A stretch of 64,000 nt of DNA from Pseudomonas frederiksbergensis (GTDB lineage Bacteria > Pseudomonadota > Gammaproteobacteria > Pseudomonadales > Pseudomonadaceae). The stretch is from the NCBI RefSeq assembly GCF_035751725.1, contig NZ_CP142104.1:3100001-3164000 (forward strand), in the 5' to 3' direction. The translations under genes and the position numbers were made by a program. The notes beneath the pieces are model-generated. The model worked only from the letters and a program-made list of their open reading frames with translations, ran no database searches and was not told the DNA's origin. Below are positions 3,272 to 57,401 of the stretch, one piece after another (position 1 is the first letter of the stretch; the number at the start of each line of letters is the position of its first letter).

Positions 3272-3463
3272 CTACTTGATGTTCCCGGACGGAGCGCTAC
3301 GGCGTCTCCTGGCAGGCAGCGCAGCGGCATAGGCCAGCGCTTCCTCCCGTGAAGTGAAGGAGCCCAGTCGATCAGCCTGGGTACAGACTCGCCAAGGTCC
3401 ACTGTTTACGCTGAGTACGTCATAGCCATTGATATGCAGTTTCGTCAGCATCGCAGTACTCAT
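3272..3463 (-). CDS. small conserved hypothetical protein (63 aa)
   Basis: The longer in-frame ATG at 3481 would place a perfect ribosome site (AGGAGGT, 3477-3471) inside the coding region. That site is 7 bases before ATG 3463, so the start is 3463 and the protein begins MSTAMLTKLHINGYDV. It has the flavour of small DUF2188-like proteins (GPWRVCTQADRLGSFTSREEALAYAAAL: a short beta region followed by a helix that ends in a basic tail). No function can be given. It stands alone, convergent with the sensor kinase gene. Confidence 0.6.
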   Translation of the reverse strand: MSTAMLTKLHINGYDVLSVNSGPWRVCTQADRLGSFTSREEALAYAAALPARRRRSAPSGNIK

Positions 3464-3576
3464 GGTCATCACCTCCTGCAAAGTACCGGGTTACGCTGCC
3501 TACCTTACTCCCGGTTCGGCGATCGGTGCCTACCGGGCGTCGAGTCATTCGCTGGCACGCTGATCATTCGTGAGGC

Positions 3577-4476
3577 TCAATGGGAGTCCGAATCCCATAG
3601 CCAATCCCACAAACCCGGCAGGCGCACGGGCTGGGAGGTGTCGCGAACCGAGCGAGCCAAGGCCGCTCGCTCAAGGGCCCGGCGGTCGTCGTAGAAAGGC
3701 TTCGCATCGGTCCTGAGGCCGGTCTCCCTCGCGCTGTCGAGAAGGATTTGCAGGTACTCACGGGCGTGACGAGCGGTATAGCGATTGAGGTCGTGAAACG
3801 TCACGACGATGGGTATCACACCGTCCACGGTGGGCAGTTGTCCCCCGGCGATGCGCTCGCGCACTTCGGAAAGCTGGCGGGTCAGGTTCATCCGCCGCCT
3901 CGGGCTCATCGTAATACCCCAGACCTTGCCATCATTGGCGCTCAAGTCCGTCAGCAATACGTGCATACCGTGTCGCTGATAAGCGGCAAACGTGCGCCTG
4001 TCGAAACTCCAGAATGGAGGTCGTACCAGGCTTGGCGGCGCGCCTGTGATCGCAGCGATATCGTTGGCGCCGTTGCCCAGGGACTGCTCCAGTTCTGCCG
4101 GATCCAGGAAGCGATGGTTGGTGTGCCAATGGGTCGCGGTATGAAAGCCCAGCACATGGCCCTGCGAATGCTCGCGATACATGATCGAGCGGCCGATTTC
4201 GCTGCCACCGGCTCGCGGCGCCCGCGTCTGGAGGAAAAATACCGCTTTTATCCCGGGCTGCACCGGGTTCCGCGCCAAGGCGTCCAGCACCTGCATGCTC
4301 GGATTCCAGAACGACGATGCGCTGGGGCCGTCATCGAATGTCAGCAGGAATCGAATGGGGGCCTGGACGCGCAAATGCTGCTCGGTTTGCGGGGTCAATT
4401 CGATGGGCGGGCCAATGCACCCCGACAACGGTACGGCGAGCAGCGCCATGACCAGCGCCCTGGCGAAGTTGTTCAT
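3577..4476 (-). CDS. polysaccharide deacetylase (NodB-type) lipoprotein
   Basis: 299 residues. The N-terminus is a lipoprotein signal with lipobox PLSGC (Cys20), so the enzyme should be anchored in the cell envelope. The NodB homology domain shows motif 1 TFDDG (D48, D49), the metal-binding H112xxxH116 (FHTATHWH) and motif 3 RPPFWSFD. A metal-dependent deacetylation of an N-acetylated sugar polymer is expected; the substrate (peptidoglycan, exopolysaccharide) cannot be told. AAAGG precedes the ATG. The gene is monocistronic. Confidence 0.85.
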   Translation of the reverse strand: MNNFARALVMALLAVPLSGCIGPPIELTPQTEQHLRVQAPIRFLLTFDDGPSASSFWNPSMQVLDALARNPVQPGIKAVFFLQTRAPRAGGSEIGRSIMYREHSQGHVLGFHTATHWHTNHRFLDPAELEQSLGNGANDIAAITGAPPSLVRPPFWSFDRRTFAAYQRHGMHVLLTDLSANDGKVWGITMSPRRRMNLTRQLSEVRERIAGGQLPTVDGVIPIVVTFHDLNRYTARHAREYLQILLDSARETGLRTDAKPFYDDRRALERAALARSVRDTSQPVRLPGLWDWLWDSDSH

Positions 4477-4704
4477 GTCTTGCCTTTATTCAATGCCACG
4501 TTACGTCGCCTTTGATCCCTGGCACCGGTGCTTTCAAGCTCACCTTGGAGAAGGTTACCCGGGTTTGGTTCCACACCGTGAGCACGGTTGTTTCGCCACC
4601 GACAGCGTCCCCTCCCCGGCCCCCGATCTTGACCGTCTGGAAATCAGATGGAATTTTCCGAACGGCTCCGTATCCATCCGTATAGGATCAATTAGGGAGG
4701 ATTT

Positions 4705-4959
4705 ATGGGCGGTCCATCGCTTTACATCATCGACTACATGCTCCATGGCGAGCCCAAGTCTTTCATCATTCGCGCTGAAGTGATGAATAACTCCGAAGCT
4801 TGGCATTGGGCCAGTTGCGACGCGGGTGTTGGGCGCATACCCAAATTCGGCAGGGAGAAGGTCAAGCGGGTTTCCAAACCCATGGCAGAGAAATATGGCA
4901 TTACCGATGTGCGCTGGCGAGCCTCCGTCGCGCCATCCTGGGTCAAGGAGTCCGGCTGA
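4705..4959 (+). CDS. DUF6555-type small protein
   Basis: 84 residues with a good ribosome site (AGGGAGG about 8 bases before ATG 4705). The sequence YIIDYMLHGEPKSFIIRAE..AWHWASCDAGVG is the hallmark of a short protein family I recognise from pseudomonads as DUF6555. It is soluble, with no signal peptide or membrane segment. Function unknown. Confidence 0.75.
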   Translation: MGGPSLYIIDYMLHGEPKSFIIRAEVMNNSEAWHWASCDAGVGRIPKFGREKVKRVSKPMAEKYGITDVRWRASVAPSWVKESG

Positions 4960-5111
4960 ACACGATATGACGCGCTCCGGTGCACCGACTGTCCAGTCGT
5001 GCGCCGGATTTCAACAGAGTCGAAATAATCCAACTACGCTTAATGCAGCGTTACCCGTCCTTGTCGACGGGTTTCGTGCTGGCTCATCCAACCTTGAAAT
5101 GGAGGTGTGAC

Positions 5112-5342
5112 ATGTCCGAAAAAGAGTCCATCACCACCTTGCTCACCTTATTGGAGTCGCGCCAGGCGCGGCTGACAGCCGCCTGCAAGGAAATCGCCGA
5201 CTGGGTCGACCACCAGGGCGGACACCCCGCCGCAGTTCGCATCCGCGATCGACTCAACGACATCGAGAAGGATGCCCCATCGATCCAGAGCGCCCTGTCG
5301 TCACTGAAACCGGTGGACCGTCCGTTGCCCAAGTTTCGTTGA
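5112..5342 (+). CDS. small hypothetical helical protein (76 aa)
   Basis: Starts at ATG 5112 behind GGAGGTG (5101-5107); longer in-frame starts upstream have no ribosome site. The predicted product is highly charged and helical (SEKESITTLLTLLESRQARLTAACKEI) and ends PKFR. The stop codon lies inside a 16-bp tandem repeat. I do not recognise a family. Confidence 0.6.
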   Translation: MSEKESITTLLTLLESRQARLTAACKEIADWVDHQGGHPAAVRIRDRLNDIEKDAPSIQSALSSLKPVDRPLPKFR

Positions 5343-5362
5343 GGATAAGTTTCGTTGAGGAA
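5331..5362 (+). repeat. 16-bp tandem duplication across a stop codon
   Basis: AAGTTTCGTTGAGGAT (5331-5346) is repeated as AAGTTTCGTTGAGGAA (5347-5362). The first copy encodes the last residues and stop of the 76-residue gene, so the duplication leaves the protein unchanged. Confidence 0.8.
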
Positions 5363-5511
5363 AAGCTTAGTGAATGAAACGTTTCGTTAACGACCTGCCA
5401 CACCGGTTGCCCTGAACTCCACCGGCCGTAAAACCGATGGAACGACGGCGTACTTTTGCACCTCGATATTGATAGGTATCGATGCAAGAGCCGTCATAAG
5501 GGAGAACCAAC

Positions 5512-5937
5512 ATGAATGCCAGAGTCCTGCTGCTGATCGCCTGCGCCTGCCCCGCCACTGTGATGGCGCAAGGTTGTGAAGTCATCACCCGATCCCAAAG
5601 CCAGGCAGTAGCGGAAATCGAAACCCGCAGTTGCTATGAATACAAGGGCGTCCCTTCCGAATCCATCGGCTGGTCATGCAGCAACGAAAGCAAAGGAACC
5701 TTGAGCACCGAAAAGAAACCGGTCGAACGGTGTGCCGAGGGCTACGTGGCCACATGCCAGGCGAGGTTGACCCAAGAAGCGCTGGCCAACCCACACTCCA
5801 CCAGCAAGGACCGAAGCGGCGGCTCGGCGAATATCCCGGACAATGCGCAGGTGACTTGGTACTACTACAGTGCGCAACAGGTCCAGCAGGCACAAAAAGA
5901 CTGCGAAACCACCGGCGGCCAATGGAAAAACCGCTGA
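5512..5937 (+). CDS. exported cysteine-containing hypothetical protein
   Basis: 141 residues behind AAGGGAGAA. A clear signal peptide (residues 1-19, ending VMA before QGCEV) points to the periplasm or outside. The mature part has seven cysteines (including CEV, SCYEY, SCSNES, RCAEGY, TCQAR, DCETTGGQW), which suggests disulphide bonds. No catalytic motif is visible and I do not recognise the family. Confidence 0.6.
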   Translation: MNARVLLLIACACPATVMAQGCEVITRSQSQAVAEIETRSCYEYKGVPSESIGWSCSNESKGTLSTEKKPVERCAEGYVATCQARLTQEALANPHSTSKDRSGGSANIPDNAQVTWYYYSAQQVQQAQKDCETTGGQWKNR

Positions 5938-5961
5938 CCGGGTGGTTCGCATTTCAGGGCG

Positions 5962-6189
5962 TCAACCCTTGCTGTGCTCTGGGGACGAAGGCGGATTCTT
6001 GACGCCCCGCGGCCCGGCCACTCCCCAGACGATCAAGCCCAACACAGGCAAGATAATCAGCAGCAGCGCCCATCCCGCCTTGGTACCGGCCGATTTGTCG
6101 CTGCGAAAGACGCTGACGATCGCCCAAAGGTCCACGAGCAATATCAACACGGCAACGGCAATCCAGAAATAACTGGCTAGTTCAGACAT
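5962..6189 (-). CDS. PLDc_N-type small membrane protein
   Basis: 75 residues with two hydrophobic segments (about 8-27, YFWIAVAVLILLVDLWAIVSVF, and 37-56, AGWALLLIILPVLGLIVWGV). The pattern VDLWAIVSVFRS...WALLLIILPVLGLIVWGVAGPRG is that of the PLDc_N (phospholipase D-nuclease N-terminal) family, found as stand-alone small inner-membrane proteins of unknown role. Converges on the preceding exported-protein gene with a 24-bp gap. Confidence 0.7.
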   Translation of the reverse strand: MSELASYFWIAVAVLILLVDLWAIVSVFRSDKSAGTKAGWALLLIILPVLGLIVWGVAGPRGVKNPPSSPEHSKG

Positions 6190-6283
6190 GGCCTCAATCC
6201 TCTTGTCAGTCTATGGATTAGGCATGACCGCGCCAGGTCCGTTCAAAGAATCTGTCTTGCTGTTGCTGTTGACGATCGTGCAG

Positions 6284-6469
6284 CTACACGCGCTCGTTGA
6301 GGTAGGCGACCCATTGTTCATAGGCCTCGTGTTGACGCCGGACAGCCTCGTCCCAGGCCGTCCCGGACATTTGATGGACACAGATCAACGCCATCATTTC
6401 TGATGTGGCTGTATCGAGTTCAACCAAAAGCTCATGGGATTTGACTTTGAAATCTTCAACGGTAGTCAT
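6284..6469 (-). CDS. small hypothetical protein (61 aa)
   Basis: The most likely start is the second ATG of an ATGATG pair (6469), spaced 4-5 bases from GAGGA; starts further upstream have no ribosome site. The product (MTTVEDFKVKSHELLVELD...EQWVAYLNERV) looks helical and soluble. Family not recognised. Confidence 0.5.
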   Translation of the reverse strand: MTTVEDFKVKSHELLVELDTATSEMMALICVHQMSGTAWDEAVRRQHEAYEQWVAYLNERV

Positions 6470-6737
6470 CATTCCTCGCTTCCCCATACCAGGGCCGGCT
6501 CGTCCACCCAACATTGATACGTTTTTTCGGCGCTGATTCATTTTTGGCGATGATCGGTCGTTCGCGCGGCCCTACCTCCAGGTTTTCCAACCGCTCGTGA
6601 AATAAACGAAGCCTTTCCCCTTTCAGGGCGGTCCCATGGACATGAGCGAAAACTATTGGTTTGAACACTCCAAAGGAGCAAGGCTCAAATATTGCAGTTA
6701 TATTGCACTTTAATGACAGTCGAGGCTGGACAAGGTT

Positions 6738-7100
6738 ATGAAGATTCGAGCGACCGTCATCTGCGAAGAAGACCGCCACATTCTGCTGGTGCGAAAACCA
6801 AAAAGCCGCTGGGCGTTGCCAGGCGGAACCGTTGAGCGCGGCGAAACCCACGCCGACGCCGCTCTCAGGGAATTGGCGGAAGAAACCGGACTGAGTGCCG
6901 AGAACCTGCTTTACCTGATGCACGTCAGCGAAGGCGGTACCGAACACCACGTGTTCGAGGCTGCGGTCAATGATTCAACGGCCGCCAGGCCACAGAATGA
7001 GATCAGCGACTGTGTGTGGCACCCGTTGGATGCCATTGCCCAGTTGCAGATGAAGAAAGGCATGCGAGAGATATTAGAGGCGTTTCGGCGCAGATTGTGA
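6738..7100 (+). CDS. Nudix hydrolase
   Basis: 120 residues. The Nudix box is complete: GGTVERGE, seven residues, then RELAEETGL, supplying the metal-binding glutamates. It should hydrolyse a nucleoside diphosphate linked to another moiety; the substrate cannot be inferred. The protein is short and has no extra domain. It is alone, with about 340 bases of non-coding sequence before the tRNA genes. Confidence 0.85.
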   Translation: MKIRATVICEEDRHILLVRKPKSRWALPGGTVERGETHADAALRELAEETGLSAENLLYLMHVSEGGTEHHVFEAAVNDSTAARPQNEISDCVWHPLDAIAQLQMKKGMREILEAFRRRL

Positions 7101-7392
7101 GCGCTGTCGAGCTTGAGTAAGCATGGACTGTAGCGTCGGCCTGACAAAAAACACAGAAGAGCGCACGGCGCAGTCTCTCGTTCTCTTTGTGCGCCATAGT
7201 CTTCGGCCTCTCGTCGCTCATGTATACAAGCGCATGGAATGATGGTGCCAGAAGAATAACCATCACAGGCTACAGCTATGGGTTCTACGTCTGGATGTCG
7301 GCGTTTGTATGGCTGGCGCTCTTGGCGGGCCGAAAATCCCTACAGTCGGAATACTGACAGCACACTCCCCCCAGCAGCCTCCGCCTGAAACG
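7101..7392. other. non-coding stretch
   Basis: Between the Nudix gene and the tRNA-Leu terminator I find no credible gene, no repeat and no clear promoter. Short open frames here lack ribosome sites. Confidence 0.5.
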
Positions 7393-7429
7393 AAAAAGGG
7401 TTTGCATCAGCTTTCGCTCGCAAACCCTT
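7393..7429 (-). terminator. terminator of tRNA-Leu
   Basis: Inverted repeat AAGGGTTTGC (7396-7405) / GCAAACCCTT (7420-7429); read on the minus strand it is followed by a T run. Confidence 0.85.
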
Positions 7430-7438
7430 GATCTTGGA

Positions 7439-7525
7439 TGGTGCCCGAAGCCGGAATCGAACCGGCACGCCCTTACGAGCGGGGGATTTTAAGTCCCATG
7501 CGTCTACCAGTTTCGCCATTCGGGC
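7439..7525 (-). tRNA. tRNA-Leu(UAA)
   Basis: 87 bases on the minus strand, from GCCCGAA to an encoded CCA. The acceptor stem GCCCGAA/TTCGGGC is perfect, the anticodon loop CTTAAAA gives UAA, there is a long variable arm, and the T loop is GGTTCGATTCC. Confidence 0.97.
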
Positions 7526-7675
7526 GGTAGCGCGGTCAAGCCGTGCGACACTGGCAGATAGGCATCTGGCAGGATCGAGGCTGGTGCAACAGAGGGGGAA
7601 ATATATACATCCCTCCCGGGTGAAGCAAGGCGGCCGTTGCCCTTTTCAAGACAAAACCTTTCATTGTCCCGTAAA

Positions 7676-7715
7676 CAAAAAAGCTCTGTAGATCATGAAT
7701 CTACAGAGCTTTTTA
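7676..7715 (-). terminator. terminator of tRNA-Cys
   Basis: Perfect 11-bp stem GCTCTGTAGAT (7683-7693) / ATCTACAGAGC (7699-7709) flanked by A and T runs, so it could work in both directions. It separates the tRNA-Cys transcript from tRNA-Leu. Confidence 0.85.
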
Positions 7716-7719
7716 AAAG

Positions 7720-7793
7720 TGGAGGCCGAAGTCGGAATCGAACCGGCGTAGGTGGATTTGCAATCCACTGCATAACCATTTTGCTATTCGGCC
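7720..7793 (-). tRNA. tRNA-Cys(GCA)
   Basis: 74 bases on the minus strand with encoded CCA. Acceptor stem GGCCGAA/TTCGGCC, anticodon stem GTGGA/TCCAC around loop TTGCAAA (GCA), and T loop GGTTCGATTCC. Confidence 0.97.
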
Positions 7794-8131
7794 TCAATAC
7801 GCCTGATGCAATACAACCACACCCTGCGGATGAAAACTTATCCGGATAAAGCCGCTAATAGCGAGCTATCTCCTTGAAAACATTGAAGTTTTTTACGCCT
7901 CGATGCATTCGATGGGCGCAATTATGTACTCATTTGCCTAGGCTGACAACCCCTTGATTTCAAAAAAAATTTGCCAGGCGGTCGACCCCTGGGATGTTTT
8001 TCCCAGCGCAACACGGCGAGCCGAAACCAGCGGCCTCCGGCTCATCGGGAAACCCGTGCCCCCAACGGAACAACCTCCTTCGCCTCGGTTCATTCGTTAT
8101 GTCGTCCCCTGGATCAGCAAGGAGAACCATC
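7794..8131. other. non-coding stretch upstream of tRNA-Cys and the SRPBCC gene
   Basis: Must hold the divergent promoters of tRNA-Cys (minus) and the 8132 gene (plus), but I cannot place convincing -35/-10 boxes. In many pseudomonads tRNA-Gly and pgsA lie next to tRNA-Cys/tRNA-Leu; neither is here. Confidence 0.4.
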
Positions 8132-39203: not shown

Positions 39204-39218
39204 GCCCAACTTACCCTT

Positions 39219-39248
39219 GTGGCGAGGGGATTTATCCCCTCCCCACGG
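39219..39248. repeat. REP palindrome (GTGGCGAGGGGATTTATCCCC type)
   Basis: TTGTGGCGAGGGGA and TCCCCTCCCCACGG flank a short loop between the converging regulator and SDR genes. Could act as a two-way terminator. Confidence 0.75.
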
Positions 39249-45809: not shown

Positions 45810-47480
45810 TCAGGATCGCGGTTCCGACATCAGTCCCTTCACCAGGGAAATGCAGCCCAGCAGCAGCACAATGGCAAAGGGCAGCCCGGTAGAAACCGCC
45901 ATGGCCTGCAAGGCGATCAGCCCACCGCCCAACAACAGCGCGATGGCGATCACACCCTCGATGACTGCCCAGAAAACCCGTTGAGGAACGGGCGCATCGA
46001 CCTTGCCGCCGGCAGTGATGGTATCGATCACCAGCGATCCGGAGTCCGACGAAGTGATGAAGAAGACGATCACCAGCACGATGCCCAGCAACGATGAGAT
46101 TTCCTTGAGGGGCAGCGCTTCCAGCATCGCGAACAGCTTGAGTTCCAGCACCGCATCCTTGACCCCGCTCAATCCTTGCAAGGTGGCCTGGTCGATGGCC
46201 GTCCCGCCAAAGGTGGTCATCCAGAGCACCGACACCAGCGAGGGCACCAACAGGACAGAAATCAGGAACTCGCGGACAGTCCGGCCACGGCTGACCCGCG
46301 CAATGAACATGCCTACAAATGGCGACCAGCTGATCCACCAGGCCCAGTAGAACGCCGTCCAGCCCTGGGTGAACTCGGCGTCGGTACGACCGAAAGGGTT
46401 GGACAATGCAGGCAGGTATTCAACGTACGTCACCACGTTCTCGAAGAAGCCGGTAAGAATGGCCAGGGTGGGACCGACGACAATGATGAAGAGCAGCAAC
46501 AGGAGCGCCAGGCCCATGTTGATTTCGGAGAGCAGCTTGACGCCCTTCTCCAGCCCGGCCAGTACCGACCACAGGGCAATCAGCGTGATACCGATGATCA
46601 GTACCACCTTGCTGACGTTGGAGGATGGGATGCCGAACAGATGTTCAATCCCCGCCGCAGCCTGCTCGGCACCGATACCCAGCGAGGTCGCAAGCCCGAA
46701 CAGGGTGGCGAACACCGCCAGGATGTCGATGATGTGCCCTGGCCACCCCCAGACACGCTCCCCCAGCAACGGATAGAAAATCGAGCGAATCGACAGCGGC
46801 AACCCTTTGTTGAACGAGAACAGCGCCAAGGATAACGCTACGATCGCGTAGATAGCCCAGGGATGCAGTCCCCAGTGAAAAATCGTCGCAGCCATCGCCA
46901 GGTCCGCAGCGCCTTTCATGTCGCCCGCTGCGCCATCGAGGGGGGCCCAGTCCGTGCGTACCCCGCTAGGATCGAGCGTCACGCCCCCCATCGCAGCGGC
47001 GTAATGCGACATGGGCTCTGCCACGCCGTAGAACATGAGCCCGATCCCCATCCCGGCAGCGAACAACATGGAGAACCAACCCAGATAGGTATGATCCGGC
47101 GTGGCGTCGCGGCCGCCCAATCGCACCTTTCCCAGCGGTGAAACAATCAACGCCAGGCACAACAACACGAAAACATTGCCTGCGCTCATGAAGAACCAGG
47201 CCAGGTTTCGGGTCAACCAACCGCGCATAGCGCTGAAAAGCGGCTCGACTTCATTTTGGAGAGCCAGCGTCACGATGACGAACAACAGAACGGTGGCGGC
47301 GGAGATCAGAAAGACTTTGCCATGGATATCCAGGGAGAAAGAAAACTCCCCGCGGAAATTGTCCTGTCCGATGACATAGTCTGTTTCGATGAGATTTGCC
47401 TCGCCGCTGGGGGCTGGTATCCCCTCCGTACCGGGCGCCTGGGATTTTCCTGATAGATCGTCTACAGGATCTTTACCCAC
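45810..47480 (-). CDS. BCCT family betaine/choline/carnitine transporter
   Basis: 556 residues from GTG 47480, which follows AAGGAGG by 5 bases; the in-frame ATG at 47570 has no ribosome site. About 12 membrane segments and the family motifs GMGIGLMFYGVAEPMSHY and the aromatic betaine-box helix ending WAWWISWSPFVGMFIARVSRGRTVREF. A hydrophilic N-terminal tail (about 1-40) precedes the first segment. Imports a quaternary-ammonium compound, most often glycine betaine, carnitine or choline; the substrate is unknown. Confidence 0.9.
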   Translation of the reverse strand: MGKDPVDDLSGKSQAPGTEGIPAPSGEANLIETDYVIGQDNFRGEFSFSLDIHGKVFLISAATVLLFVIVTLALQNEVEPLFSAMRGWLTRNLAWFFMSAGNVFVLLCLALIVSPLGKVRLGGRDATPDHTYLGWFSMLFAAGMGIGLMFYGVAEPMSHYAAAMGGVTLDPSGVRTDWAPLDGAAGDMKGAADLAMAATIFHWGLHPWAIYAIVALSLALFSFNKGLPLSIRSIFYPLLGERVWGWPGHIIDILAVFATLFGLATSLGIGAEQAAAGIEHLFGIPSSNVSKVVLIIGITLIALWSVLAGLEKGVKLLSEINMGLALLLLLFIIVVGPTLAILTGFFENVVTYVEYLPALSNPFGRTDAEFTQGWTAFYWAWWISWSPFVGMFIARVSRGRTVREFLISVLLVPSLVSVLWMTTFGGTAIDQATLQGLSGVKDAVLELKLFAMLEALPLKEISSLLGIVLVIVFFITSSDSGSLVIDTITAGGKVDAPVPQRVFWAVIEGVIAIALLLGGGLIALQAMAVSTGLPFAIVLLLGCISLVKGLMSEPRS

Positions 47481-47658
47481 GTGAACCTCCTTTGATTTTG
47501 CAGCACGCACACGCGCGTGATGGTCTGAAAAGCCCCGCTGTTCAAAGTGAAAACGAGATGTAAGTGCCATAGCCTAACAAGTCTGGAGGCATGCCTGTGA
47601 CATCGACCGGCCATGACTGTTCCACAAACGGCCTCAGGTTGGCCTATAGCCAGGCAAA

Positions 47659-47695
47659 ACGAAGGGCGCCGGGACAGTGTCCGGGCGCCCTTCAT
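47659..47695 (-). terminator. hairpin after the TRAP binding-protein gene
   Basis: GAAGGGCGCCGGGA (47661-47674) pairs with TCCGGGCGCCCTTC (47680-47693) with one mismatch; the minus-strand tail reads CGTTTTG. Lies 30 bases after the dctP-type gene. Confidence 0.75.
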
Positions 47696-47722
47696 ATGGA
47701 CCGTCCGCAGGGTTGCTTCAAT

Positions 47723-48739
47723 TCACTGTGCACGCACCTTGCTGATTTCGTCGTACATCATCCTCACCAGTTCCCCATCCAACGATTTGGCAAACTTGTC
47801 GATCACCGGCTGCACGCGCTCGCGAAAGCGGTCTTTCTCGGCCGGGGTGATTTCGTTGATGGTCATCGCACCGGCCAGCGTGGCCTTGGCCTTGTCCATG
47901 CTTGTCGCGGTGACTTCGCGCTGGAACGCCTGCGCCTCGGCTGCGGCGGCGCGGATCATCACCTTTTCATCATCGTTGAGACGGTTCCAGGTTTTCTGGC
48001 TGATGATCAACGACTGCGGATTGAAGATGTGGCCGGTGACGGAAAGATACTTCTGTACCTCGTAGAACTTGTTGCCTTCAATCACCGTGAAAGGATTTTC
48101 CTGGCCGTCGATGGTGTGCTGCTCAAGGCCTGTGTAGACCTCGGGGAACGCCATCGGCACTGGGTTGGCGCCCAGGGCAGTGAAGGTTTCCAGGTAGATC
48201 GGCGATTGGATGACGCGCAGTTTCAAGCCCTGCAGGTCTTCGAGCTTGGTCACCGGGTGCTTGCTGTTGGTCAGGTGACGGAACCCCAGGTCCCAATAGC
48301 CCAGCCCTACCAACCCCTTGCTGTCCAGTTGCGCCGCCAGTTTCTGCCCGACCGGGCCATCGATGACCGCGTGCGCTTCCTCGACGTTGTTGAACAGGAA
48401 AGGGAAATCGAGCATGGCGTAATCCGGTGCCTGGGCGGCCAGGATGCCGGAGTTGAGCACGGTGATGTCCAAGGTCCCGCCCTGCAATGCCGACACCGTT
48501 TGCACGTCGCCGCCCAGGGTTCCGCCGGGGAACAGGCGGACCTTGATCTTGCCGCCGCTCTTTTCGCTGAGCAGGTCGGCGAACTTCTGCGCGCCCTGGC
48601 CCTGGGGATGTTCCTTGACGTTCTGGAATGCGAATCGCAAGGTTCGCTCGCGTATCTCATCCGCGTGGCTGGCTACGCCGGTCAGCAGCAATCCCGTCGC
48701 GCACGCCCCGGCCAGCAAGGTTTTCATCAGTTTTCCCAT
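47723..48739 (-). CDS. TRAP transporter substrate-binding protein (DctP)
   Basis: 338 residues. Signal peptide (about 1-26, ending SHA before DEIRE) and the DctP fold (TLRFAFQNVKEHPQGQGAQKFADLLSEKSGGKIKVRLFPGGTLG, in part), with the conserved Arg of the binding site (LKLRVIQSPIY). It carries a carboxylate ligand to the DctQM membrane subunits encoded upstream. GGAGAG precedes the ATG. Last gene of the operon, 52 bases after dctM. Confidence 0.9.
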   Translation of the reverse strand: MGKLMKTLLAGACATGLLLTGVASHADEIRERTLRFAFQNVKEHPQGQGAQKFADLLSEKSGGKIKVRLFPGGTLGGDVQTVSALQGGTLDITVLNSGILAAQAPDYAMLDFPFLFNNVEEAHAVIDGPVGQKLAAQLDSKGLVGLGYWDLGFRHLTNSKHPVTKLEDLQGLKLRVIQSPIYLETFTALGANPVPMAFPEVYTGLEQHTIDGQENPFTVIEGNKFYEVQKYLSVTGHIFNPQSLIISQKTWNRLNDDEKVMIRAAAAEAQAFQREVTATSMDKAKATLAGAMTINEITPAEKDRFRERVQPVIDKFAKSLDGELVRMMYDEISKVRAQ

Positions 48740-48791
48740 GTCACTCTCCGATCGTTATTGTTTTTAAAGGTCGAGCCAGCGAGCACCGCTG

Positions 48792-50072
48792 TCATCCGGT
48801 GAAGAATTTCAACGGTCCCATGACCAGTTGCGGAAACAGGACCAACAGCAACAGCACCACAAACTGCGCAATCATGAACGGCCAGACCCCGCGGACGATT
48901 TCCTCGAAGTCCAGCTTTGCCACTCCGCACACGACGTTGAGCACCGTGCCCACCGGGGGCGTGATCAGGCCGATGGCCGTGTTGATCAGGAACAACACGC
49001 CGAAGTACACGGGATCGATACCGGCCTGGATGACGGCCGGCATCAGCACCGGGGTGAGGATGAGAATGGTCGGGGTCATGTCCATGACCGTGCCCACCAG
49101 GATGATCAACGCCATCATCACCAGCAACAGGAGGGTCTGGTTATCCATGAACGGCGCCAGCAGGTCCGCCAGTTGGCCCGGCAGGTCGGCGATCGTCACC
49201 AGCCACGATGAAACCATGGCCGCCGCCACCAGCAGCATCACCACCGAGGTGGTCCTGGCCGAGGACAGGATCACTTCGTACAACTGACTGATCTTCATTT
49301 CCCGGTAGATCACCAGGGACACGAACAGCGAATAGACCGCCGCGACCACCGCCGCTTCCGTCGGGGTGAAGATGCCAAACTTCAGGCCCAGGATGATGAT
49401 CAAGGGCAGGCCCATCGCCCAGCTGCCGTCGAGCAGTGTGCGCATGACTTCGGCACGGGAACGCTTGGGCGCCGTCGCCACGTTCTCGCGCCGGGAGATC
49501 AGCCACCAGGCGATGGCCAGCCCGACACCCAGCATCACCCCAGGCACGATACCGGCCAGGAACAGCTTGGAAATCGACACACCGGAGGCCACGCCGAAGA
49601 CGATGAAGCCGATGCTGGGCGGAATCACTGGTGCAATGGTGCTGCCGGCGGCGATCAGCCCGGCCGAGCGCCCGCGGTTGTGTCCGGCCAGTACCATCAT
49701 CGGCACGAGCAACGCCGCCAAAGCCGCCGCATCGGCCACGGCCGAACCGGACAACGACGCCAGCAGGCACGAGGCGATGATCGCGACGTAACCCAGGCCG
49801 CCGCGCTTGTGTCCCACCAGCGCCATGGCAATGTTGACGATGCGCTTGGACAGGCCACCGACGTTCATGACCTCGCCGGCCAGCATGAAGAACGGCACGG
49901 CCATCAGCGGAAAGCTGTCGGCGCCATTAAGCAGGTTTTGCGCGATGATCTGTGCGTCGAACAGGTCCAGGTAGACCATCAACGCCACGCTGACCACCAG
50001 CAAGGCAAAGGCAATCGGGATGCCCAGCGCCATGCTGCCCATCAGCGAGCCGAGGAAAATAGCCAGCGTCAT
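48792..50072 (-). CDS. TRAP transporter large permease (DctM)
   Basis: 426 residues, about 12 membrane segments of the TRAP-TM large subunit (LMGSMALGIPIAFALLVVSV, FFMLAGEVMNVGGLSKRIVNIAMALVG, in part). Forms the sodium-coupled channel for the substrate. ATGA overlap with dctQ. Confidence 0.92.
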   Translation of the reverse strand: MTLAIFLGSLMGSMALGIPIAFALLVVSVALMVYLDLFDAQIIAQNLLNGADSFPLMAVPFFMLAGEVMNVGGLSKRIVNIAMALVGHKRGGLGYVAIIASCLLASLSGSAVADAAALAALLVPMMVLAGHNRGRSAGLIAAGSTIAPVIPPSIGFIVFGVASGVSISKLFLAGIVPGVMLGVGLAIAWWLISRRENVATAPKRSRAEVMRTLLDGSWAMGLPLIIILGLKFGIFTPTEAAVVAAVYSLFVSLVIYREMKISQLYEVILSSARTTSVVMLLVAAAMVSSWLVTIADLPGQLADLLAPFMDNQTLLLLVMMALIILVGTVMDMTPTILILTPVLMPAVIQAGIDPVYFGVLFLINTAIGLITPPVGTVLNVVCGVAKLDFEEIVRGVWPFMIAQFVVLLLLVLFPQLVMGPLKFFTG

Positions 50073-50623
50073 GGGCGCGTACTCTTGAGGGTGTCAGGGT
50101 TGAAGCTGGCGGCGTCGCTTTGCTCGACCAACAAAGGATCGTCATCGCGCAGCTTGCCGAACAACGCCAGGTACAATTCGTACAGCAGGATGGCCGTTGC
50201 GCTGACTCCGAACACCAGCCCCGCGGCGTAGAACAACGCCATCGACAGGCCGGACGCCGGCGCGACCACATTCAGGTTGATCACCGCCTGCTGCCAACTG
50301 CCGCTGACAATCAATCCGCAAATGTAGAGCATCAGCAAATGCCCGATGACCAGGCAGGCACGCTTGCCTGCTGGCGGCAAGCGCTTGACCAGGCTGTTCA
50401 TGCCCAGGTGCGCGCGGTCCTTGAGTGCCACCAGTGCACCGAGAAAGATCATCCAGACGAAGAACCAGCGCGACAGCTCCTCCGACACGCTGATGCCCGA
50501 GTTGAAGGCATAGCGCAGCACCACATTGCCGAACACCAGCACGATCATCGCGACCATGCACAGCACGATCAGCAGCTTGAGCAGCTTGAAATACAGATCG
50601 ACGACTTTTGTCATCTTGAACAC
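50069..50623 (-). CDS. TRAP transporter small permease (DctQ)
   Basis: 184 residues, four membrane segments. Conserved core SVSEELSRWFFVWMIFLGALVALKDRAHLGMN. First gene of the dctQ-dctM-dctP operon. Probably C4-dicarboxylate, sugar acid or related uptake; the actual ligand depends on DctP. Confidence 0.9.
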   Translation of the reverse strand: MFKMTKVVDLYFKLLKLLIVLCMVAMIVLVFGNVVLRYAFNSGISVSEELSRWFFVWMIFLGALVALKDRAHLGMNSLVKRLPPAGKRACLVIGHLLMLYICGLIVSGSWQQAVINLNVVAPASGLSMALFYAAGLVFGVSATAILLYELYLALFGKLRDDDPLLVEQSDAASFNPDTLKSTRP

Positions 50624-51113
50624 CTCACAGATTGATCCAGGCGCAGGCCTGCTGCCGGCGCGACAGGGCGGGCGCTATCGGGTCGCTGGAATATCCCGGA
50701 GGGCCCCGGATCTGAAGGTAGGTAATGAGGACGAGTTCTGTTGACGGGCACGCATGAGGGGATCCTCTGTTTTTATTATGGCCTCGCCTGGGCATGGCAA
50801 GGCTGGGTGACCGCTAAAATGTACTACCCAGTTAATTCGGTCAATAACCTTACGCGCCGGGATGCCCCGAACCGATCGAACTTGCGTGCGATTATCGGCC
50901 ACAACCCAGTGACACCTGCGGCCTGCCGACCCGATGGGAAGTTATTTGAAGGCGTTTTGTATCGCTGTGTATATGAGTAGCCCATTGATACGAATCCGCT
51001 GATCTTGCGCCTTTGCGGCACACACCCTCGATACACCTGCGCGTTTAACTGCACACACCGGACAGCAGCACACCGCTGCACTGGCCCACTCAATCAAGCG
51101 CAGGAGAAACACC
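50624..51113. other. non-coding divergent region
   Basis: 490 bases that hold the promoters of the TRAP operon (minus) and the repeat-protein gene (plus). I see no credible gene, hairpin or known operator. The plus-strand end carries CAGGAG (51102-51106 region) as ribosome site for the repeat-protein gene. Confidence 0.4.
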
Positions 51114-51566
51114 ATGTTCAATTTCTCGAAACTCTCGTCCCTGGCAATCGCCCTCACCTTGGTTGGCGGCGCCACGCTGTCGAACATCGCCGCGGCCGAC
51201 AGCGCATCGTCGTCTTATGACCAGGCTGCACATCAACTGGCTGAAGGTGGCTCCGATCGCCTGATCCAGAATCGCGTGGCTGAAGGCGGCTCCGATCGCT
51301 TGATCCAGAATCGCGTGGCTGAAGGCGGCTCCGATCGCCTGATCCAGAATCGTGTGGCTGAAGGCGGCTCCGATCGCCTGATCCAGAATCGCGTGGCTGA
51401 AGGCGGCTCCGATCGCCTGATCCAGAATCGTGTGGCTGAAGGCGGCTCCGATCGCTTGATCCAGAATCGCGTGGCTGAAGGCGGCTCCGATCGCCTGATC
51501 CAGAATCGCGTGGCTGAAGGCGGAGCTGATCGGTTACAGGAGCTGCGCGAACGCAGCACTGTGTGA
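51114..51566 (+). CDS. exported protein made of seven 13-residue tandem repeats
   Basis: 150 residues. Signal peptide 1-28 ending in AAA before DSASS. After a short spacer (SSYDQAAHQL) come seven copies of AEGGSDRLIQNRV, then a diverged eighth unit (AEGGADRLQELRERSTV). Each copy is 39 bases (51240-51512) and nearly identical in DNA, including synonymous positions, so copies were recently homogenised or expanded. Each unit has one negative patch (AE/SD) and two basic residues (R, R) in regular spacing. No cysteine, no membrane segment. I recall similar short repeat proteins in pseudomonads, sometimes annotated as phage-infection or heme-related, without firm evidence. Monocistronic, with a terminator behind. 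Confidence 0.8.
   Translation: MFNFSKLSSLAIALTLVGGATLSNIAAADSASSSYDQAAHQLAEGGSDRLIQNRVAEGGSDRLIQNRVAEGGSDRLIQNRVAEGGSDRLIQNRVAEGGSDRLIQNRVAEGGSDRLIQNRVAEGGSDRLIQNRVAEGGADRLQELRERSTV
51240..51512 (+). repeat. seven direct repeats of 39 bp within the repeat-protein gene
   Basis: Units start at 51240, 51279, 51318, 51357, 51396, 51435 and 51474. Differences among them are few and mostly synonymous (for example CGCCTG or CGCTTG for Arg-Leu, CGCGTG or CGTGTG for Arg-Val), which is what slippage or gene conversion would leave. Confidence 0.9.
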
Positions 51567-51574
51567 TAGCGGTG

Positions 51575-51608
51575 CTTGTGGCGAGGGGATTTATCCTCTC
51601 GCCACAAG
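51575..51608. repeat. REP palindrome after the repeat-protein gene
   Basis: CTTGTGGCGAGGGGA / TCCTCTCGCCACAAG with a short loop; same type as at 39219 and 57370. Confidence 0.8.
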
Positions 51609-51647
51609 AACACACTCTTCGATGCCCGATCTGAAAACATCGCCCAT

Positions 51648-51684
51648 AAAAAAAACCCGCATCTCTCAATGCGGGGTTTTTCTT
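51648..51684. terminator. two-way terminator between the repeat-protein gene and gdhB
   Basis: AAAACCCGCAT (about 51653-51663) / ATGCGGGGTTTT (about 51669-51680) with A and T runs on both sides; it serves both converging genes. Confidence 0.88.
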
Positions 51685-51695
51685 TCAACGGTGGA

Positions 51696-54600
51696 TCAGT
51701 TGGCCGTGACGACCGCCTGACCACTCAGTGCCAGGTCCAGCAGCTCGCGGTTGGCAACCGCGTACATGGCGTAGTCAGTGCCACTGGCGGCACGGATGTC
51801 CACCAGCATGGCGCGCCAGCGCTCGACCATTTCGTGATGCTGCTCAAGCCACAGCGCCAGGCGGGTTTCGACGTCCTGGGTCGCGTCGCCGTCCTGCAGG
51901 ACCGAGATAGTGATCGCCCGTTGCTGCCAGTCGATGTCATCGCGGAAGGCTTCACGGGCCAGGGCCTGCCAGTTGTTTTCCACTGGCAGTGCGCTGATCT
52001 GTTGCAGGTACCAGGTGATGTCCAGGGCGCTGCCCACGGCGAAGTAAGCCTTGGCCACATCGGCGGCGTTCTGGCCGGTAACGTCGGCAGCCTCGATGAT
52101 TGGCAACAAGGTGTACAGATGCGAGGTGCCGGCAACCATGCGTGCCAGCAACTCCGGCACGCCAGCGGCCACGTAGGCCTGGTAGCGGGTCTGCCAGCCT
52201 TCACGGGTCGGGCCTTCCAGCAATTCGTCGAGCTTGAGACCCAACGCCGCCAGGTGCGGACCGAAGTGAGCGACGTCACGGGCAGCGTTCTGCTCGTTGC
52301 GGCGGCTGCGCAGGAACCAGCGCGTGGCGCGACGGCCCAGGCGCATCAGCTCGTCCATCAGCTCCAGTTGCACGTCGGCCGAGACCTGGTGGTCCAAGGC
52401 TTCGATCTGACGGAACCAATGCGGGAGATGGAAGATGTCCCGAACGATCACATAGGCACCGGCCACGTTCGCCGGGCTCATGCCTGTCGACTCTTTCAAC
52501 CGTTGGACGAAGGTAATGCCCATGTGGTTGACCAGGTCGTTGGCGATCTGGGTGCTGACGATCTCGCGTTTCAGGCGATGGCGACGCATGGCTTCGGAGA
52601 ACTTGCTCACCAGGGTCGGTGGGAATGCGGTCTCCATGTCACGGGTCAGGTAATCGTCGTCCGGCACCAAGGAATTGAGCAGCGATTCCTTGAGGTCGAT
52701 CTTGCTGTAGGAGATCAGCACCGACAGCTCGGCACGGGTCAGGCCGTGGCCCGCCGCGACACGTTCGGCCAGCTGTTCTTCGGTCGGCAGGAACTCGATG
52801 GCGCGGTCCAGCTTGCCACGGGCTTCCAGGTCGTTCATCAGGCGCTTGTATTCGGCGATCCGCACGAAGGCGCGACGGGCCGCCAGGGACAAGGCCTGGG
52901 TCTGCTTATAGTTGTTGCCCAACACCAGGCCACCGACTTCGTCGGTCATGCTCGCCAGCAACTGGTTGCGCTGCTTGTCGGTCATGTCGCCGGCCTGCAC
53001 CACTTCGTTGAGCAGGATCTTGATGTTCACTTCATGGTCGGAGCAGTCCACGCCACCGGCGTTGTCGATGAAGTCGGTGTTGGTGGCGCCGCCATGCAGG
53101 CCGAACTCGACGCGACCCAGTTGGGTCATGCCCAGGTTACCGCCCTCGCCCACGACTTTGCAGCGCAGTTCGTTGCCGTTCACGCGCAGCGCATCGTTGG
53201 CCTTGTCGCCGACATCGGCGTGGCTTTCGGTGCTCGCCTTAACGTAGGTACCGATACCGCCGTTCCACAACAGGTCTACCGGTGCCTTGAGCAAGGCGTT
53301 CAGCAGTTCGGTCGGGGTCAGCTTGTCAGCCTTGATGTCGAAGCGCTCTTTCATCTGCGGCGAAATCGCGATGCTCTTCGCGCTGCGCGAGAAGATACCG
53401 CCGCCTTCGGACATGATGCTGGCGTCGTAGTCGGTCCAGGCCGAACGCGGCAGGTCGAACAGGCGCTTGCGCTCGGCGAAGCTGCTGGCCGGCTCCGGGT
53501 TCGGGTCGACGAAGATGTGCAAGTGGTTGAAGGCCGCGACCAGTTGCAGCTTGTCGGACATCAACAAGCCGTTGCCGAACACGTCGCCTGCCATGTCGCC
53601 AACGCCCACCACGGTGATGCTGTCTTGCTGGACGTTGATGCCGCGCTCGCGGAAGTGGCGCTGCACGCCGACCCACGCGCCCTTGGCGGTGATGCCCATT
53701 TTCTTGTGGTCGTAGCCGGCCGAGCCGCCGGAGGCGAACGCATCGCCCAGCCAGAAGCCGTAGTCGATGGCGATACCGTTGGCGATGTCGGAGAAGGTCG
53801 CAGTGCCCTTGTCCGCCGCGACCACCAGGTACGGGTCATCGTCGTCATGACGCACGACGTTGGCCGGCGGTACCAGCGCGCCGTCCTTCAGGTTGTCGGT
53901 GATGTCCAACAGGCCCGAAATGAAGATGCGGTAGCAGGCGATGCCCTCGGCCGCGATCTCGTCCCGGCTGCCGCCCAACGGCAGGCGACGTGGCAGGAAA
54001 CCGCCCTTGGCGCCCACCGGCACGATTACCGAGTTCTTCACCTGCTGGGCTTTTACCAGGCCCAGCACTTCGGTGCGGTAGTCTTCTTCACGATCGGACC
54101 AGCGCAGGCCGCCACGGGCAACGTTGCCGAAGCGCAGGTGCACGCCTTCGACCCGTGGCGAGTAGACGAAGATTTCGAATTTCGGCACCGGCTTCGGCAG
54201 TTCCGGAATCAGGTGCGGGTTGAACTTGAAGCTGAAGTAGGACTTGTTCTGGCCGTTGGCGTCGGTCTGGTAGAAGTTGGTCCGCAGGGTCGCCTTGATC
54301 AGGTCAAGGTAGCGACGCAGGATGCGGTCTTCGTTGAGCACCTGGACGTCATCCAGGGCCGACAGGATCGCCTGCTCCAGACGCAGCTGTTTGTCTTCCA
54401 GGTCGTCGCCGGTCAACTTGCGCGCCAGGTAGAAGCGGGTCTTGAACAACCGGGTCAACTCGCGTGCGATGTCGGTGTGGTTGTTCAGGGTGCTGGCGAT
54501 ATAGCCGAGGTCGAAGCCCAGGCGGATCTGCTTCAGGTAACGGGCGTAGGCACGCAGCAACGCCACGTCGCGCCACGGCAGGCCGGCGGTCAGCACCAGG

Positions 54601-56564
54601 CGGTTGAACGCGTCGTTCTCGGCATCGCCGCGCACGATGTGGACGAACGCGTCCTGCAAGGTGTCGTTGAGTTGCTGGATATCGAGGTCCAGGCCTTCGG
54701 CGGCGGTGAAGGCAAAGTCATGAATCCAGAATTCGCGGCCATTGGTGTGGCGCAGGCGGTACGGGAATTCACCCAGCACCCGCAGGCCGAGGTTCTCCAG
54801 GATAGGCAGCACGTCGGACAGCGCCAGCGGCGTGTCGGCGTGATACAGCTTGCAGTGCAGCTCGCGCTGGCCGGACACCTGGCCCAGCGGCTGGTAGAAG
54901 CTCATCACCAGCGGGTTCTTTTCGTTCAGGCTCAACAGGTGCTGCATGTCGACCACGGCCGAGTGCGCGGCAAAGCGCTCGCGGTAGCCGGCCGGGAAGC
55001 CTTTCGGGAAGTCCGACAGCACGTTGGTGCCCTGGGCTTCGCCGAAGCTCTCGATGACCAGGCTGGCATAGTCGTCCTTCCAGCTGCGGCAGGCCTGTAC
55101 GACTTCTTTTTCCAGTAGCAACGGGTCGATGTCGATGCGGTTCTTCGGGTCCACCCGCAGGATCAACTGCACACGGGCCAGTACGGATTCGGAGAAGAAG
55201 GTCCAGAACTCGCAATCCGACGCTTTCAGGCGCTCCATCAGCACCTGCTGGATCTTCTGGCGCACTTCGGTGGAATAGATATCGCGCGGCACGTAGGCCA
55301 GGCAGTAGCAGAAACGGCCGTATGGGTCTTTGCGCAGGAATACGCGGATCTTGTTGCGTTCCTGGATCTGCACGATGGACATGACGGTGCTGAACAGCTC
55401 GTCCACCGGGGTCTGGAACAAGTCGTCGCGAGGCAGCACTTCAACCACCTGGGCCAGTTCCTTGCCCAGGTGCGCCTTGGCCTGGAAACCGGAGCGACGT
55501 TCGATTTCCGCGACCTTGCGACGGATGTACGGGATGACCCGCACGCTCTCGCCATACACCGAAGAGGTGTACAGGCCCATGAAACGGCATTCCTTGATGA
55601 CCTTGCCGTCGGCGTCGATTTGACGGATCGAGACATAATCCGGATAGGCCGGGCGGTGGACACGGCTCGGGTGCGCGGCCTTGGCGAACGACAACACAGT
55701 CGGTTCGCGCAGGTAATTGACGGCGTAGTCTTCGATGCGCAGGTCTTCGGCGGTCAGGCCGGCGCGCAGCAATTTGGTCAGGCCGAGGAAGGACTCGGAG
55801 TCGTACTCGATGTGACCGCCATCGGCTTCATCACGGACCACGAACTCTTCGTAGCCCAGGAACGTAAAGTGGTTACCCACCAGCCATTCCAGGAAGCTCT
55901 TGATTTCGGCTTTTTCATCGGCGTCGGTGGCGTAGGCACTGTTGTCCAGGCTCGCGAGGATTTCCTGGACCTTGGCCTTCATTGGCTCGAAATCGGCCAC
56001 GGCGACGCGCACTTCGCCCAACACCTGCTCAAGTTCCTTGCTCAGGACGTTGAGTTCGGCGGCGTTGGCGCAGCGGTCGATCTCCAGATACATCAGCGAC
56101 TCTTGCAGCACGTCGTCGCCCTGGGTGCCCTTCGGCAGGATCTCCAGCAACTCGCCCTTGCTGCCGCGACGCACGCTCAGGACGGTGGTTTGCAGGGTAT
56201 GGATGCTGTAGCCGCGACGGTTCAGCTCGGTGCGGACCGAATCCACCAGGAACGGCAAGTCATGGTGCAGCACTTCGACGGCGGTGTGGGTCGACTGCCA
56301 GCCGTGGCGTTCGTAATCGGGGTTGTAGACGCGCACCTGCGGTTGCGCGTGGTCAAAGCGCTCAAGCAGGCGCCAGGCGGACAGCGTGCAGCCGGCGAGG
56401 TCGGACAACCGGCGCTGGGTGAGTTCATCGAGGGAAATGATGCCGAAGAATTGTTCAGCGAACAGCGCCACTTGTGGCAGTGCCTGTTCACTGATGTGCT
56501 GCGCCAGTGCCGCTTGCAGTTGATGCTGGAAGTCGGCTTTGCTGGCTGCGGTGAAGAACGCCAT
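51696..56564 (-). CDS. gdhB: NAD-specific glutamate dehydrogenase, 180-kDa class
   Basis: 1622 residues, the size of the large NAD-GDH of P. aeruginosa. The N-terminal half carries regulatory ACT-like domains ([23 protein letters not shown]). The catalytic core is recognisable by [39 protein letters not shown] (in part) and the nucleotide-binding [15 protein letters not shown]. It turns glutamate into 2-oxoglutarate and ammonia with NAD, feeding amino-acid carbon to the citric acid cycle. GGAG precedes ATG 56564. Monocistronic. Confidence 0.95.
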   Translation of the reverse strand: [1622 protein letters not shown]

Positions 56565-56994
56565 CTGTGGTACTCCGCTTGGGCTTGTTATTGATGAAAG
56601 CGTCGCGTGCAGCCCCTTTCGGGGCCGTCGGCCATCCCGTTCCTGATTCTCGGGCAGAGGAAACAGGATGACAGGTGGGTGAAGCTGGACGCGACCCGCA
56701 GGTCACATCCTTTTCCAGGTAATTTCAATCGGATGACCACCTGCAAAAAACACTCCGCGATGCCCTTTGCAGGTGCACATCCGTTGCGCAGCTTAACGAG
56801 TGCGACAACGTGACTGCTTGCAGCGCTGCGACATATTCGGTCATCGGCTAGCGTTATAGCCCTCATGCACCGAACAACCCTAGCAGCCTTGGGGCCAAAC
56901 GGCACCTCGCGGTGGTAATCCAGCAGGAATTCGCCGGGACTGGCAAAATTCCGCTTTTCCACCCGCAAGGCTCACCGGAGCCAGGACCCCTCAC
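56565..56994. other. non-coding divergent region of gdhB
   Basis: 430 bases between gdhB (minus) and the small gene at 56995 (plus). Presumably two promoters; I see no clear gene, REP element or operator. Confidence 0.4.
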
Positions 56995-57348
56995 ATGAAA
57001 ATGACCACCGCCCTGCTGATCGCCAACCCAAGCGATGAAGAAGAAGACAACATGGCCATGCTCTGTTGCCACAGCGCGCAGGGCGAGATGTTCCTGATGA
57101 CCCGCTACCCGGACGAAGACGAGCTGGAGATCACCCTGGACGGCGAGCCCTCGACACTGGACGACGTCAAGGTCACCCTCGGCCCGACCCTGCTGAAGAT
57201 CGAGATCGGCGCGGCGGATGCCGACGCGCTCAATGGCGATGATGTGTTGGAGATTACCTACGACCCCAAGGTGACGGACGTGGCCGAAGTGGAGCGGACC
57301 TTGCGTAACATCCTCGACGGGACCGGGACATACGTCAGCGAGCTCTGA
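56995..57348 (+). CDS. conserved hypothetical acidic protein
   Basis: 117 residues, strongly acidic (SDEEEDN, YPDEDELEITLDGEPSTLDD), no signal or membrane segment. Compact alpha/beta features (CHSAQGEMFLMTRYPDEDELEI). I do not recognise a named family; the ORF is well formed and codon use is normal for the genome. Next to gdhB, but divergent. Confidence 0.6.
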   Translation: MKMTTALLIANPSDEEEDNMAMLCCHSAQGEMFLMTRYPDEDELEITLDGEPSTLDDVKVTLGPTLLKIEIGAADADALNGDDVLEITYDPKVTDVAEVERTLRNILDGTGTYVSEL

Positions 57349-57369: not shown

Positions 57370-57401
57370 TTGTGGCGAGGGGATTGATCCCCTCGCCACA
57401 A
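57370..57401. repeat. REP palindrome
   Basis: TTGTGGCGAGGGGATT / GATCCCCTCGCCACAA; perfect stem of about 14 bp, 21 bases after the acidic-protein gene. Confidence 0.85.

Follow-up and report, generated by a model that had tools for sequence, protein, structure and literature searches.

The window, a 64-kb stretch of the Pseudomonas frederiksbergensis genome, contains a gene for a repeat protein that is predicted to be exported (Table 1). This array gene stands by itself: judged by their translations, its neighbours are a TRAP-transporter operon on one side and a gene for glutamate dehydrogenase on the other. A short linker separates its leader, which is hydrophobic and conserved in the MFNFSK-type relatives, from seven core units and a diverged eighth unit, AEGGADRLQELRE. 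Tandem Repeats Finder reports a single 39-bp array at 51238-51523 (7.3 copies, 96% matches, score 537), the remaining three rows in the 64-kb window scoring 67, 69 and 56. A sequence-only reading of this DNA had described the open reading frame at 51114-51566 as seven near-identical 13-residue repeats plus a diverged end unit, with 39-bp copies that agree even at silent positions. Both descriptions hold: the core units are identical in protein, their DNA varies solely at three silent positions, and its mean pairwise identity is 0.968 (96.8%). Within the end unit, DRL.ELRER is invariant in all 12 aligned sequences.

Table 1. Features of the array gene and its flanks (positions within the window).
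Feature	Position	Strand	Basis or remark
Putative direct-repeat operator, TGTATCGCTGTGTAT	50958..50972	+	TGTATC and TGTAT invariant in 11/11
Third half-site GATACG, 14 bases past the direct repeat	50987..50992	+	Invariant in 11/11
Fourth half-site GATACA, 37 bases past GATACG	51030..51035	+	Spacing conservation
Possible -10 region (role inferred), GTTTAACTG	51043..51051	+	Invariant in 11/11
Probable ribosome-binding site AGGAG, seven bases 5' of ATG	51102..51106	+	Sequence
Array gene, exported repeat protein, 150 aa	51114..51566	+	ORF list; homologues across leader and array
Leader, probable Sec signal peptide, about residues 1-28	51114..51197	+	By eye
Seven core 39-bp units, each AEGGSDRLIQNRV	51240..51512	+	Tandem Repeats Finder and unit comparison
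Diverged end unit and C-terminus, AEGGADRLQELRERSTV	51513..51563	+	Alignment
Palindrome, 15-bp stem, right behind the stop codon	51575..51608		Fold of 51567-51700
Terminator-like hairpin CCCGCA...TGCGGG and T run	51656..51682		Sequence, fold

Two reverse-strand open reading frames across the array (51154-51669 and 51233-51724) were not taken as genes, because a stop-free frame of a 39-bp repeat stays open. Downstream, the stretch 51567-51700 as a whole folds with a z of -5.24; the palindrome within it is presumably REP-like, and the terminator-like hairpin precedes a convergent gene at 51696-56564. Three segments of the window (51576-51607, 39217-39246 and 57370-57401) all match one piece of another locus, L093. 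No Rfam family reached its gathering score between 50600 and 51750. A C-terminal tail ending in GSKYQRY, which the window gene lacks, occurs in 25 of the 37 public array loci among the matches listed and also in L092-L097, L099 and L100.

Comparison with relatives shows that the number of units varies. The matching locus of P. frederiksbergensis SI8 (L153) is 98.45% identical to the window across 8080 aligned columns. Its array gene begins with 96 bases identical to those of the window gene and has five core units, two below the window, giving 124 vs 150 residues. Three database proteins with 98-100% identity across the covered part have four (P0003), three (P0001) and two (P0004) core units. 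Eight of the 37 public array loci that carry the promoter described below have the DctQ neighbour of the window (among the matches listed); one of these is cut off (L175), one is SI8, and the six others have one to five core units each; in the five loci with several units, the mean identity between units of a gene runs from 0.67 to 0.92. Among all sequences compared, the range is 1 to 7. Judged by these unit counts in relatives, the array of the window has expanded recently, by gain or loss of entire units. The sequence-only reading had expected an array that is young or homogenised and variable between strains. The relatives bear this out: near-identical sequences carry 2, 3, 4, 5 and 7 core units, and more distant loci at the same place carry one to five less alike ones. 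A constant copy number with old units would have spoken against expansion; the fewer and less alike units of relatives are what expansion in the lineage of the window predicts. At the site adjacent to gdhB, the array is present in the host genome and absent in 29 others (30 loci, drawn from the 40 genus genomes that have the gdhB end), while some named relatives (L153, L137) also have it there; the place of the gene is thus clade-specific.

Pairs of units within genes give a pN/pS of 0.29 (37 genes, 148 units), a value lowered somewhat by the fixed positions of the unit-collecting motif, which permits certain letters alone at positions 2-8 and 12, so that invariance there is partly built in. 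The 37 genes are that of the window and 36 from the 37 public array loci among the matches listed, a length limit of 60 aa leaving out the 52 aa of L175. Hence, the repeat unit appears to be under constraint. This bears on the idea of a largely neutral array, whose units would slip without restraint and do little, while its leader and promoter are simply passed on. The wide range in unit number and the lack of a predicted fold would both accord with it, but the low pN/pS between units of one gene, promoter bases that are invariant across 11 genomes and the presence of a family member in nearly all sampled genomes of the genus make it unlikely.

The mature chain, cut by eye after residue 28, contains 13% Gly, no Cys, no Met and one His, and has a GRAVY of -0.84 and a net charge of -3. 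AlphaFold2 (44 sequences) reached a pLDDT of 48.9 and a pTM of 0.14, and in this low-confidence model helices of about 9-11 residues, broken at Gly-Gly, run through most of the array. A fibrous or solenoid fold, as had been proposed from the letters of the DNA, finds no backing in these values, which neither show nor exclude assembly. From the fold model, the composition and the constraint on the unit, we infer a flexible, multivalent exported protein. The sole Pfam match up to E = 10 was DUF7263, with 16.6 bits vs a cut-off of 27. RTX repeats are nine-residue calcium-binding units of the form GGXGXDXUX; they were set aside on the period of 13 residues and the lack of an RTX match in Pfam. Hydrophilins are delimited by Gly above 6% and a mean hydropathy below -1, and the array protein passes the first limit with its 13% and misses the second with its -0.84. 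In properties, rather than in sequence, it resembles LEA/hydrophilin-type proteins, being likewise hydrophilic, rich in Gly and, in the low-confidence model, made of short helices; it differs from them in GRAVY and in its 13-residue unit.

One match to a named model is to PtrA (NF041599; PA2808 in P. aeruginosa), a Pseudomonas family whose NCBIfam N-terminal model scores 71.5 bits vs a cut-off of 31 by matching the AEGG-type motif of the array protein. PtrA is described as a periplasmic copper-tolerance protein of P. aeruginosa (PMC7922089, PMC8872213), and a periplasmic copper-handling protein of this kind might be read from the score. However, this score adds up eight stretches. The motif recurs eight times in the window protein, each unit covers 9-10 of the 46 model positions with 9.5-10.9 bits, and no single copy follows the model along its full length, the best stretch spanning positions 20-29 of 46. 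Copper binding by analogy with PtrA was rejected on this ground. The mature protein also offers little of the usual copper ligands (Cys, Met, His), and a reading by eye of the ORFs at 46000-57000 revealed no copRS-like pair. Moreover, the array promoter motif differs from the CzcR motif GAAAC-N6-GTAAT (PMC8025907). We therefore regard a copper-handling role as improbable, and the metal binding put forward by the sequence-only reading fares no better with a chain of this composition.

Relatives of the array protein are found throughout the genus. Of 119 genomes sampled in the genus, 113 have a family match (E 1e-5 or better), often several, and one genome has as many as 11. When 293 genomes were drawn from across the order, eight matched, namely 7 of the 8 genomes listed from the same genus and 1 of the 285 others, the latter a weak match (E 1.1e-9) on both strands of one place. 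Among plasmid records, 1 of 72,556 has a relative, P. asturiensis pCC1524 (L280), where methyltransferase and glycosyltransferase genes are annotated nearby. Database searches gave 509 hits; among the best 120, those that have a name are mostly called 'phage infection protein' or hypothetical protein. In a small sample of open-licence papers, searches on the family name, on 13-residue repeat proteins and on the motif found no description, in agreement with the earlier remark that no family function is established.

The public-record name of some homologues might point to a phage receptor or an anti-phage protein, and phage binding had also been suggested from the sequence alone. The name is the sole hint: none of 50,697 phage records matches, the protein has no Pfam family above cut-off, and the 9 weak matches in PHROGs (best E 0.00047) include no stretch passing alone and are all of unknown function. 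The unit is furthermore constrained and not fast changing. A role in phage infection or defence is thus highly improbable.

Besides the array gene of the window, at 3151 kb, the host genome has four more, which lie at 20 kb, 681 kb, 1286 kb and 3728 kb. The 20-kb paralogue (L003) has another leader and units identical in protein to AEGGSDRLIQNRV; gene conversion or common origin of the two arrays is possible. The arrays at 1286 kb (L004) and 681 kb (L005) have other units, AEDGFDRTNGNTV and AADGSDRTPGQTL, which have a D/G-G-x-D-R core in common with the window unit. In a further genome (L102 of G023), five tandem array genes lie within about 4.5 kb (3430-7903). Their unit, for example AQDGSDRTMNRV, has 12 residues, and each gene contains 6 to 14 matches to the motif. 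When the ORFs around the four other host-genome arrays were read by eye, no common neighbour was obvious.

Many paralogues are of the MKRQ type, and their promoters are different. A conserved block, AATGAArTTCTC, lies 73-84 bases 5' of the start codon in 36 of 37 such genes (L061-L089 and L101-L108), and 29 of the 37 have a GATGGTCACCATC-like element. A longer pattern of this promoter (up to 3 mismatches) has its sole host-genome copy at 3727883-3727906, before the array gene at 3728 kb. Since many MKRQ-type paralogues use this different promoter, the family as a whole is not tied to the regulon discussed below. Many MKRQ-type units also contain an Arg-Arg pair. Peptide precursors look like head-to-tail identical units, as the array does, and the array protein could be a precursor cleaved to 13-residue peptides that act outside the cell. 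The window unit has no dibasic pair, however, the diverged end unit is kept in relatives, and inspection by eye of the unannotated ORFs that surround the window gene and the remaining four host arrays brought up no dedicated peptidase, so that we consider a peptide precursor very unlikely.

By sequence comparison, the principal new result is regulatory: the array gene has a conserved promoter, a feature that the sequence-only reading had missed. In an alignment of 11 MFNFSK-type sequences from 11 genomes, the invariant upstream blocks are TTTGTATC-N2-T-N-TGTAT, GATACG, CACACA, CGATACA and GCGTTTAACTG. The putative operator is laid out as TGTATC-N4-TGTAT, with half-site starts 10 bases apart, about one helical turn. 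The exact core motif occurs at three places in the 6.0-Mb host genome, namely 3150958, the site of the array gene, and 97367 and 3001050, both of which precede DUF2790 genes (PF10976; 67 and 60.6 bits vs a cut-off of 27). Both DUF2790 sites keep the spacings: GATACG follows after 14 bases, and another GATAC comes 36 or 37 bases further on. With one mismatch allowed, the host genome has three further sites vs two in a reversed control, which counts against a regulon. DUF2790 proteins are small Pseudomonas proteins that have this promoter in common with the array gene and often a regulator gene next door, but they form a different sequence family without the window repeat.

A scan of the species-genome collection with a longer pattern (18 fixed letters) found at least 119 loci, which are not a random sample. 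The gene downstream, among the loci listed, encodes a DUF2790 protein in 64 and an array protein in 37; an alpha/beta-hydrolase or epoxide hydrolase follows in 10, another gene in 4, and 4 are cut off. The hydrolases have leader-like starts. A further GATAC at 36 or 37 bases is present in 115 of 119 complete sites among the matches listed, a set that includes the three host-genome sites and omits three too near a locus end. The array gene thus has its promoter in common with genes of small exported proteins and hydrolases. This company, together with the isolated position of the gene between its two flanks, does not favour a surface or matrix polymer, adhesin-like or a biofilm component, whose length would tune contact. 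Many surface repeat proteins are exported, repetitive and variable in copy number, and the array protein, itself predicted to be exported, is likewise repetitive and variable, but no cell-wall or outer-membrane anchor is evident by eye in its sequence; we deem such a polymer unlikely.

Which regulator might act at these sites is suggested by gene order, and the loci listed show a linkage to a regulator gene. At 52 of the 64 DUF2790 loci, a gene for an OmpR-family response regulator of about 246 residues runs divergently from the site; at 20 of the 37 array loci, this gene lies directly upstream in the same orientation. It is missing from the other 12 DUF2790 loci and 17 array loci of this set, 8 of these 17 being the DctQ loci, and this counts against the linkage. 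The host genome has two regulator copies, at 97.5 kb and 3076 kb, which are 89% identical, and each is followed by a histidine kinase and has a DUF2790 gene divergent from it. For the 97.5-kb copy, the closest NCBIfam model is OmpR, below cut-off. The second copy of the two-component system (3075-3078 kb, L286) lies outside the window; around its regulator are genes for DoxX, for a membrane protein that is ferric-reductase-like (29.4 bits vs a cut-off of 28) and for a protein whose thioredoxin-type domains score above cut-off and whose DsbD domains score just below. The DUF2790 gene beside the 3076-kb regulator, the third of the host genome, has only a degenerate site, TGTATT-N4-TGTATC, which again counts against the assignment. 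These arrangements suggest direct control of the array gene by an OmpR-family two-component system.

Similar arrangements occur outside the genus. A close regulator, of 87-92% identity, is present in three of five sister-genus genomes; in these three, a DUF2790 gene diverges from it, the site is related, and a DsbD-like gene lies near the regulator. Of the remaining two, one has a 56% relative and one has no match at E 1e-60. No array match was found in the five sister-genus genomes, which makes it look as if the regulon is the older of the two and the array genes joined it later. In Trinickia fusca (L161), of the Burkholderia group, a matching operator occurs with a kinase 55% and a regulator 79% identical, and a hydrolase and an Ohr peroxidase lie beside them. 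This locus suggests an old or transferred regulon.

The site resembles that of BfmR of P. aeruginosa, whose ChIP-seq motif is TACAA-N3-GATACA (PMC8025907). The reverse complement of the array operator, TACAC-N3-GATACA, is one letter from it, and the footprinted BfmR regions have GATACA in common (PMC4148453). Moreover, PA4103, which adjoins bfmRS, has a ferric-reductase-like component, so that a gene of this kind stands both beside bfmRS (PMC4148453) and beside the second system of the host. Another published BfmR motif, CGTAC-N0/5-CGTAC, does not fit the array operator (PMC10924945). The likeness is one of site and neighbour genes.

Neighbours and co-targets of the regulator suggest envelope redox or chemical stress as the inducing signal, because they include thioredoxin-type, DoxX and ferric-reductase-like genes, hydrolases and, in Trinickia, the Ohr peroxidase. 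Expression data from other strains may be relevant and point both ways. In favour, a gene named 'phage infection protein' was up 32.4-fold in P. fluorescens In5 with Rhizoctonia solani and not induced by Pythium (-1.1), and the Rhizoctonia solani list also has DoxX, cytochrome b, a histidine kinase and, at 239.5-fold, an alpha/beta-hydrolase (PMC5557065). Against it, a gene of the same name is listed as up-regulated by InvF, a type III regulator, in P. fluorescens 2P24 (PMC8490769); the In5 and 2P24 genes carry a name given to family members and may be of any array type. Lanthanides elicit a response from four of the seven DUF2790 genes in P. alloputida KT2440 (PMC11520305). No description of an array/DUF2790 regulon was seen in a small sample of open-licence papers.

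Most likely, the array gene belongs to a two-component regulon and its product is a flexible stress protein that is exported. Our preferred reading, held with about as much confidence as doubt, is that of a small, exported, multivalent envelope protectant that is switched on by an OmpR-family two-component regulon through a four-half-site promoter. The sensor kinase and the response regulator would switch the gene on via the four half-sites, and like promoters would drive the genes for DUF2790 proteins and leader-bearing alpha/beta-hydrolases. With the regulator genes near thiol-redox genes, this would be a response to envelope redox or chemical stress. The protein would be exported, probably to the periplasm, where its mature chain would form a string of short amphipathic helices with Gly-Gly hinges and would hold or shield other molecules during stress. 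Unit number would grow and shrink by unequal recombination without destroying the gene; in a flexible, multivalent protectant it would therefore be free to change without loss of the gene.

A wider reading is decidedly more tentative. The 13-residue-repeat proteins might form a genus-wide exported family with at least two separate promoters, the array being the output of an undescribed OmpR/EnvZ-like regulon and its unit number an adjustable dose of a disordered, multivalent envelope protectant that differs between close relatives. That regulon, equally speculatively, might comprise the array protein, DUF2790 proteins, exported alpha/beta-hydrolases and the thiol-redox neighbours.

For the biology of the genus, tying one branch of the family to a promoter, a regulator gene and DUF2790 would turn two unknown protein families into one testable regulon, whose sensor, operator and set of exported proteins under common control now each have candidates. 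Moreover, the change by whole units between near-identical sequences would provide a natural system in which to ask if the strength of an envelope stress response depends on the number of repeats.
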